DNA of 64,000 nt from Desulfuribacillus stibiiarsenatis (GTDB lineage: Bacteria > Bacillota > Bacilli > Desulfuribacillales > Desulfuribacillaceae), in NCBI RefSeq assembly GCF_001742305.1, contig NZ_MJAT01000001.1:1-64000 (forward strand). The letters are read 5' to 3'. The notes below the pieces were generated by a model. It did not search any database, was not told the DNA's origin, and worked only from the letters and a program-made list of their open reading frames with translations. Both the position numbers and the translations under genes were made by a program. Below are positions 43,252-44,229 of this stretch, one piece after another. How positions within the stretch are numbered: the first letter of the stretch is position 1; each line of letters starts with the position of its first letter.

Positions 43252-43271
43252 TTTTCAATCCCTAGGATAAG

Positions 43272-43280
43272 TGATATAAT
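43272..43280 (+). promoter_or_regulatory. Extended -10 promoter upstream of yvyF
   Basis: TGATATAAT, a TGnTATAAT element about 107 nt before the start of the next gene; no clear -35. Confidence 0.5.
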
Positions 43281-43387
43281 AGCCATAGTTCGATTCGGCA
43301 TTATTGATTGATATTTCTACATGATTCTATTCAGAGCTTGAAGATATTAGTATGTAAGGCATAAAAATGATAGGGGAGCTGACTTTC

Positions 43388-43801
43388 ATGGCACTTTCTA
43401 ATTGTCCACGTTGTGGAAGATTATTTGATAACACATTTAAAGATATATGCCAACAATGCACCCATGAAGAGGAACAGTATTACCAGAAAGTAAGAAAGTA
43501 TGTGAAGGAACACAAAGATTGCACAATTCATGAGGCAAGCGAAGCAACGGATGTGCCAGTCAAGTTGATTACTCGTTTTATTAAACAAGGTCGTATTAAT
43601 CTGAAGAATAACCCGAATATGCTGTACCCATGTGAAGGATGTGGTGCTTTTATTGCAGCTGGTAGATTTTGCAATAGCTGTATGACAGACTTACAAAAAG
43701 GACTATCAGAAGCTGGCAAAAAACCTGAACCTGAGCTTAAAAAGCCACGTGAAGGGGATAATAAGACTGGTTACCACTTCGATAGTTTTAAAAAGCGGTA
43801 A
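43388..43801 (+). CDS. yvyF: YvyF-like flagellar-operon zinc protein
   Basis: 137 residues. An N-terminal CPRCG...CQQC pair, a helical segment (about 28-70, including IHEASEATDVPVKLITRFIKQGRI, a helix-turn-helix-like unit) and a second pair CEGCG...CNSC are followed by a basic C-terminal tail. This is the TIGR03826-type protein that precedes flgM in many Bacilli and that has been linked to flagellar gene control. ATG at 43388 lies 9 nt after AGGGGAG; an ATG 7 codons upstream would include that site. The transcript should end at the hairpin at 43857-43897. Confidence 0.88.
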   Translation: MALSNCPRCGRLFDNTFKDICQQCTHEEEQYYQKVRKYVKEHKDCTIHEASEATDVPVKLITRFIKQGRINLKNNPNMLYPCEGCGAFIAAGRFCNSCMTDLQKGLSEAGKKPEPELKKPREGDNKTGYHFDSFKKR

Positions 43802-43842: not shown

Positions 43843-43869
43843 TAAACAATTAATGAAAAAAGCCGATAT
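43843..43869 (+). promoter_or_regulatory. Sigma-D flagellar promoter of flgM
   Basis: TAAA (43843-43846), a 15-nt spacer and GCCGATAT (43862-43869), an exact match to the sigma-D/sigma-28 consensus as I know it. It would read flgM, flgN, flgK, flgL and possibly yviE. The -10 lies inside the 5' arm of the yvyF terminator. Confidence 0.88.
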
Positions 43870-43897
43870 TACAAGTATAACTTGTATGTCGGTTTTT
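43857..43897 (+). terminator. yvyF terminator overlapping the sigma-D promoter
   Basis: AAAAAGCCGA / TCGGTTTTT outer stem with ACAAG/CTTGT inner stem and a TATAA loop. Initiation from the sigma-D promoter would begin near the loop or 3' arm, so that transcript escapes the hairpin. Confidence 0.8.
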
Positions 43898-43947
43898 GTA
43901 TTTTGTCGCAATAAGTAAGAAACCGATTGATGAAGGAGTGACGCATA

Positions 43948-44229
43948 ATGAAAATTAACGATTTAGGCCGTGTGGGAGCAATCCAGGCATATCAAAAAGC
44001 AAATAAGGCGCAAGGAGCAAAGAAGGCTGAAGCTAAAAAGGATGAGCTTCAAATTTCAAAAGCTGGGCAAGAACTATTGCAAGTACAGAAAAGCGATATT
44101 TTAAATCCTTCTAGCCGTGCGGAAAAAGTAGAGCGATTGAAGGAACAGTATGAAAGTGGAACATACCAAGTGAATTCTAAAGTTGTCGCTGAGAAGATGC
44201 TTCAAGAAAATTCGTGGTTGTTGAAATAG
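43948..44229 (+). CDS. flgM: Anti-sigma-28 factor FlgM
   Basis: 93 residues, mostly helical and charged. The C-terminal half (SRAEKVERLKEQYESGTY, then VAEKMLQ) is the sigma-D-binding region of the family. FlgM holds sigma-D inactive until the hook-basal body is finished and FlgM is exported. GAAGGAG precedes the ATG. It is first in the flgM-flgN-flgK-flgL run and is read from the sigma-D promoter, giving the usual negative feedback. Confidence 0.93.
   Translation: MKINDLGRVGAIQAYQKANKAQGAKKAEAKKDELQISKAGQELLQVQKSDILNPSSRAEKVERLKEQYESGTYQVNSKVVAEKMLQENSWLLK

Follow-up and report, generated by a model that had tools for sequence, protein, structure and literature searches.

The predicted terminator of yvyF shares its bases with the sigma-D promoter of flgM in Desulfuribacillus stibiiarsenatis and other families of its class

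What separates flgM, the gene for the anti-sigma-D factor, from the genes that run toward it? In the window, by which we mean the whole stretch of 64,000 nucleotides of D. stibiiarsenatis DNA that was analyzed (contig NZ_MJAT01000001.1, with all coordinates given on the forward strand), a comFA-like helicase open reading frame (ORF), assigned by eye, is followed in one direction by a ComF-family gene, yvyF, flgM, a 166-amino-acid ORF without assignment that occupies the flgN position, flgK, and flgL. Both genes at the junction of interest are identified by family models, yvyF at 43367..43801 (TIGR03826 YvyF, 135 bits, above the cut-off) and flgM at 43948..44229 (TIGR03824, 49 bits, above the cut-off, with a PF04316 match). 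In the gap that separates comFC from yvyF, a consensus scan found a sigma-70-like promoter with a TG before its -10 (43252..43280; 10/12 matches). It may serve yvyF itself and is a likely source of transcription from upstream; such sites are no commoner there than expected by chance.

Both a promoter and a hairpin sit between the yvyF stop (43801) and the flgM start (43948). The -35 element TAAA (43843..43846), a 15-nt spacer, and the -10 element GCCGATAT (43862..43869) exactly match the sigma-D consensus, and the -35, spacing, and -10 of a sigma-D/sigma-28 promoter (TAAA, 14 to 16 nt, GCCGATAT) are all present. Positions 43858-43897 read AAAAGCCGATATTACAAG-TATAA-CTTGTATGTCGGTTTTT, then a U-tract; in the folds the 5′ arm (43858..43876) is paired at 43858-43869 and 43871-43876, with 43870 bulged, and the 3′ arm together with the U-tract spans 43880..43897. 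The hairpin folds at -19.1 kcal/mol (z of -4.62), a value that 0/200 shuffles equal, and a second fold, at -18.0 kcal/mol, pairs the complete 8-base -10 within the 5′ arm. A stable G+C-containing stem, a short loop, and a U-tract together make this a predicted intrinsic terminator, although a simple terminator scan of the window did not list it. An Rfam search returned no match above the gathering threshold (best 20.6 bits versus 70). When the -10 was held fixed and the 67 nt downstream were shuffled, an equally strong overlapping terminator arose in 1/1000 trials for the window and in 0/1000 for the sister genome. The original prediction that the exact sigma-D -10 also forms part of the 5′ arm of the yvyF terminator thus holds in both the sequence and the folds, with the U-tract following.

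We found FlgM (PF04316) in 143 of the 200 genomes of the class and analyzed 131 upstream regions; the 12 genomes left out (G007, G073, G091, G113, G140, G146, G151, G157, G170, G178, G193, and G199) belong to families f7, f17, f25, and f43. The full hairpin finder placed the best sigma-D -10 within a terminator 5′ arm in 58/131 of these regions, and a faster test did so in 57/131 against 5.2 expected from 50 shuffles of each. With one genome per genus, 24/69 were fused against 2.44 expected from shuffles. We count 12 fused families among the 33: f1 (2/2), to which the window belongs, f2 (1/1), f4 (15/16), f8 (5/5), f12 (9/10), f13 (1/1), f14 (4/4), f20 (1/1), f22 (11/14), f35 (1/1), f36 (6/7), and f28, whose one genome (G035) was missed by the script, recognized as fused by eye, and included in both the family count and the stem test. 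A single case in f7 (G189, 1/6) was judged a chance hit and excluded from the 12 families, but it is counted among the 57. One f12 genome, G180, has two full-length FlgM matches among a total of four; the copy on C21 fits the fused pattern and the copy on C41 does not, and it is the unfused copy that entered the count. Some of the fused families have a weak -35 (TAAC, TAAT, TTAT). The 131 regions also show three other states: a terminator that stands apart, ahead of the promoter (13), a promoter without a terminator (32), and no good promoter (28). The fused layout is not indispensable, since 21/33 families lack it and these other junction states occur.

Is the hairpin itself selected, or is it an unselected product of chance or plain common descent? 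On a tree of 237 columns of YvyF and FlgM, the fused state is clustered (24/60 genera fused, at least nine changes), as descent would have it; because the tree has many weak forks, we make no claim of a single origin. The stem, however, has changed in a compensating manner between families. Across 24 genus representatives from the 12 families, several pair types occur at each position after CGAT, and swapping the 3′ half between families weakens the mean fold from -16.3 kcal/mol (native) to -8.8 kcal/mol, with 1.2% of between-family swaps reaching the native mean (G174, whose chosen promoter was off register, was omitted from this and the initiator test). A promoter alone requires no matching 3′ arm, so the pairing appears to be under selection in its own right. 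Together with the shuffle tests, this covariation makes an unselected hairpin scarcely credible and shows selection for the hairpin, though not directly for termination itself.

A second indication of selection on promoter and terminator alike, independent of the stem, is the position of the start. In 51/54 fused junctions (one of the 55 has no recognizable 3′ arm motif), CGAT-N8-TA places a TA, read as -1T/+1A, inside the loop or at its edge, ~7 to 8 nt past the -10, where a sigma-D start would be expected. In the window the TA lies at 43876..43877, and the loop of the predicted fold begins with A43877, the predicted +1. The -35 spacing peaks at 15 to 16 nt on the forward strand only, a peak that is biased by our having picked the fused promoters with a -35 term at spacings of 14 to 16; TA played no part in the picking. 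The same TA is present in 29/45 unfused flgM promoters of fair quality, a set whose choice was weighted toward TA, and so looks like a sigma-D initiator around which the hairpin was built. By folding, an RNA that starts at the loop is unable to form the terminator hairpin. The original prediction had set initiation near the loop and had the sigma-D transcript lack the 5′ arm, and both points agree with these data, the first as a matter of position; the check that it proposed, co-conservation of hairpin and -10 among relatives, was run and passed through the 12 of 33 families, the covarying stems, and the TA initiator.

These observations also bear on two other ways of reading the repeat. A hairpin with a U-tract ahead of flgM in many genomes could be taken for a leader attenuator that terminates the sigma-D transcript itself. 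An attenuator lies within the transcript that it regulates, and given the predicted loop start this hairpin does not; the conserved initiator in the loop and the missing 5′ arm make an attenuator highly improbable. Alternatively, the inverted repeat could act as DNA, either as a divergent pair of sigma-D promoters or as a palindromic operator, and the 3′ arm does resemble a reversed -10. The reverse strand, however, has no -35 peak and carries the initiator in 4/54 junctions, so that a -35 and an initiator are not found on both strands and a divergent promoter is rejected, and the T-rich tail is kept while the loop and the arm length vary; a role as DNA is accordingly very unlikely.

The overlap itself, the fact that it is conserved, the covariation in the stem, and the place of the initiator are directly established, whereas termination, the start site, and insulation are inferred. 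We consider it probable that at the yvyF-flgM junction a terminator and a promoter are fused, so that flgM is insulated and its transcription starts at the loop. Polymerase arriving from yvyF, or from comF further upstream, would copy the full inverted repeat, fold the hairpin, and stop in the U-tract. Sigma-D holoenzyme would recognize its promoter in that 5′ arm (TAAA-N15-GCCGATAT) and initiate at the loop TA; because a start there leaves only the 3′ arm in the RNA, the sigma-D transcript should escape termination. The G+C-rich sigma-D -10 (GCC) would suit the base of a terminator stem. The flgM gene and the late genes behind it would then be transcribed only while sigma-D is active. FlgM would in that case act purely as negative feedback produced by sigma-D, shielded from competence and housekeeping transcription.

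A less strict version of this scheme has the terminator act only in part. Either a protein (CsrA, for example) or the prevailing conditions would tune read-through, and transcription driven by competence or stress would sometimes reach flgM. A G at 43898 does interrupt the U-tract. We noticed no regulator binding site or antiterminator. In the window, AAACCGAT (43920..43927) can pair by folding with the freed 3′ arm of the sigma-D transcript, and both f1 genomes show pairing between that arm and the flgM leader, but such pairing is not general: at least 7 paired bases occur in 21/24 cases against 18.4 expected. We therefore regard a regulated junction as unlikely.

How specific to flgM is the fusion? 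A scan of all species (genome_contigs) required a promoter, an initiator, a 3′ arm, and a T-run at once; at least 119 stretches matched, and among the matches listed (80 loci) at least 46 have flgM directly downstream, mostly in Paenibacillus and also in Fontibacillus, Cohnella, Aneurinibacillus, and others; at one locus (L232, P. taihuensis) the sequence ends short of where flgM would appear. A looser pattern matched 52/200 genomes, with ~14 of the listed places at flgM and the others scattered, and run backwards as a control it matched far fewer. Overlap of -10 and terminator as a general trait of sigma-D promoters was considered and rejected. In G048 and G004 together, 3/30 sites overlap (two of them flgM and one weak), and among 22 sites inspected of 31 matches in the two f1 genomes, the overlaps are the two flgM junctions, one further locus (L348/L063), and a weak case at L331 (-10.2, 4 bases).

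That further locus (G000:C3:22928), in the genome of the window and outside the window itself, is a second fused case. Its spacer AACCTCC and -10 GCCGATA pair with TATTGC-GGGAGG-TTTTTTT, and CGAT-N8-TA is present. The 3′ arm stands directly before an ATG and is for that reason also a likely ribosome binding site; the gene downstream encodes a 360-amino-acid protein with an EF-hand-like stretch, as judged by eye. At fliD in both f1 genomes (L332, G000:C1:93633, and L337, G001:C5:45512), a terminator takes its 3′ arm and U-tract from the sigma-D -35 and spacer (CTAAACTTTTTTT), so its register mirrors that of the fusion at flgM. Across 41 fliD upstream regions this form occurs in those two genomes only, and one weak -10 overlap occurs in G115. 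Similar promoter-hairpin fusions are found in Lachnospiraceae (L273, L223, and L242), the first of them between a flgN-like ORF and flgK, as assigned by eye, and they suggest that the Lachnospiraceae fusions arose independently.

Overlap between a terminator and the next transcription unit is a known kind of arrangement, as in the Escherichia coli frd terminator/ampC attenuator, where, as here, sequence is common to the terminator of one operon and the region in which the next one starts. In frd/ampC, however, the second transcript carries the hairpin in its leader, whereas at the yvyF-flgM junction the second transcript would start in the loop and lack the hairpin. An ordinary terminator followed by a separate promoter, as in f3 and other families, would likewise insulate neighboring units, but it consists of two elements side by side, while here the bases are shared. 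A search of the open-access literature turned up no account of this junction, which older papers may note, and an excerpt of PMC2965389 does not mention flgM. What may be new here, among known terminator overlaps, is the conserved loop-initiating form.

The flgM sigma-D promoters of Bacillus have the same consensus -35 and -10 and the same yvyF-flgM order. Judged by FlgM sequence, the family nearest Bacillus subtilis is presumably f15. Its promoter lies 24 nt past the yvyF stop with no terminator between, so that the B. subtilis-like promoter stands alone where the window has a fusion. In B. subtilis, read-through from comFA into flgM reportedly raises FlgM and represses motility (Liu and Zuber 1998, as cited in an excerpt of PMC4793158). 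The terminator-less f15 junction fits this comF-flgM read-through, and junctions with and without the fused element would thus correspond to two wirings of FlgM.

If the account is true, it would explain why B. subtilis, from a family without the element, couples competence to motility. It is about an even call, in our judgment, that the junction is a conserved one-piece boundary element in the full sense, one whose -10 is the terminator 5′ arm and whose loop holds the initiator, which may be old in the class and maintained by compensating changes, and which renders FlgM solely sigma-D dependent; that its absence from the Bacillus lineage lets competence transcription shut off motility by read-through; and that sigma-28 promoters are predisposed to such fusions by their G+C-rich -10, with flgK in Lachnospiraceae and the second gene and fliD in the genome of the window as further cases. 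Hairpins of this kind could be mistaken for flgM attenuators. Across many families, stop and start signals share the same bases, and a start at the loop would let only the right transcript escape, which offers a testable explanation for the insulation that flagellar late genes may have from competence and housekeeping transcription.
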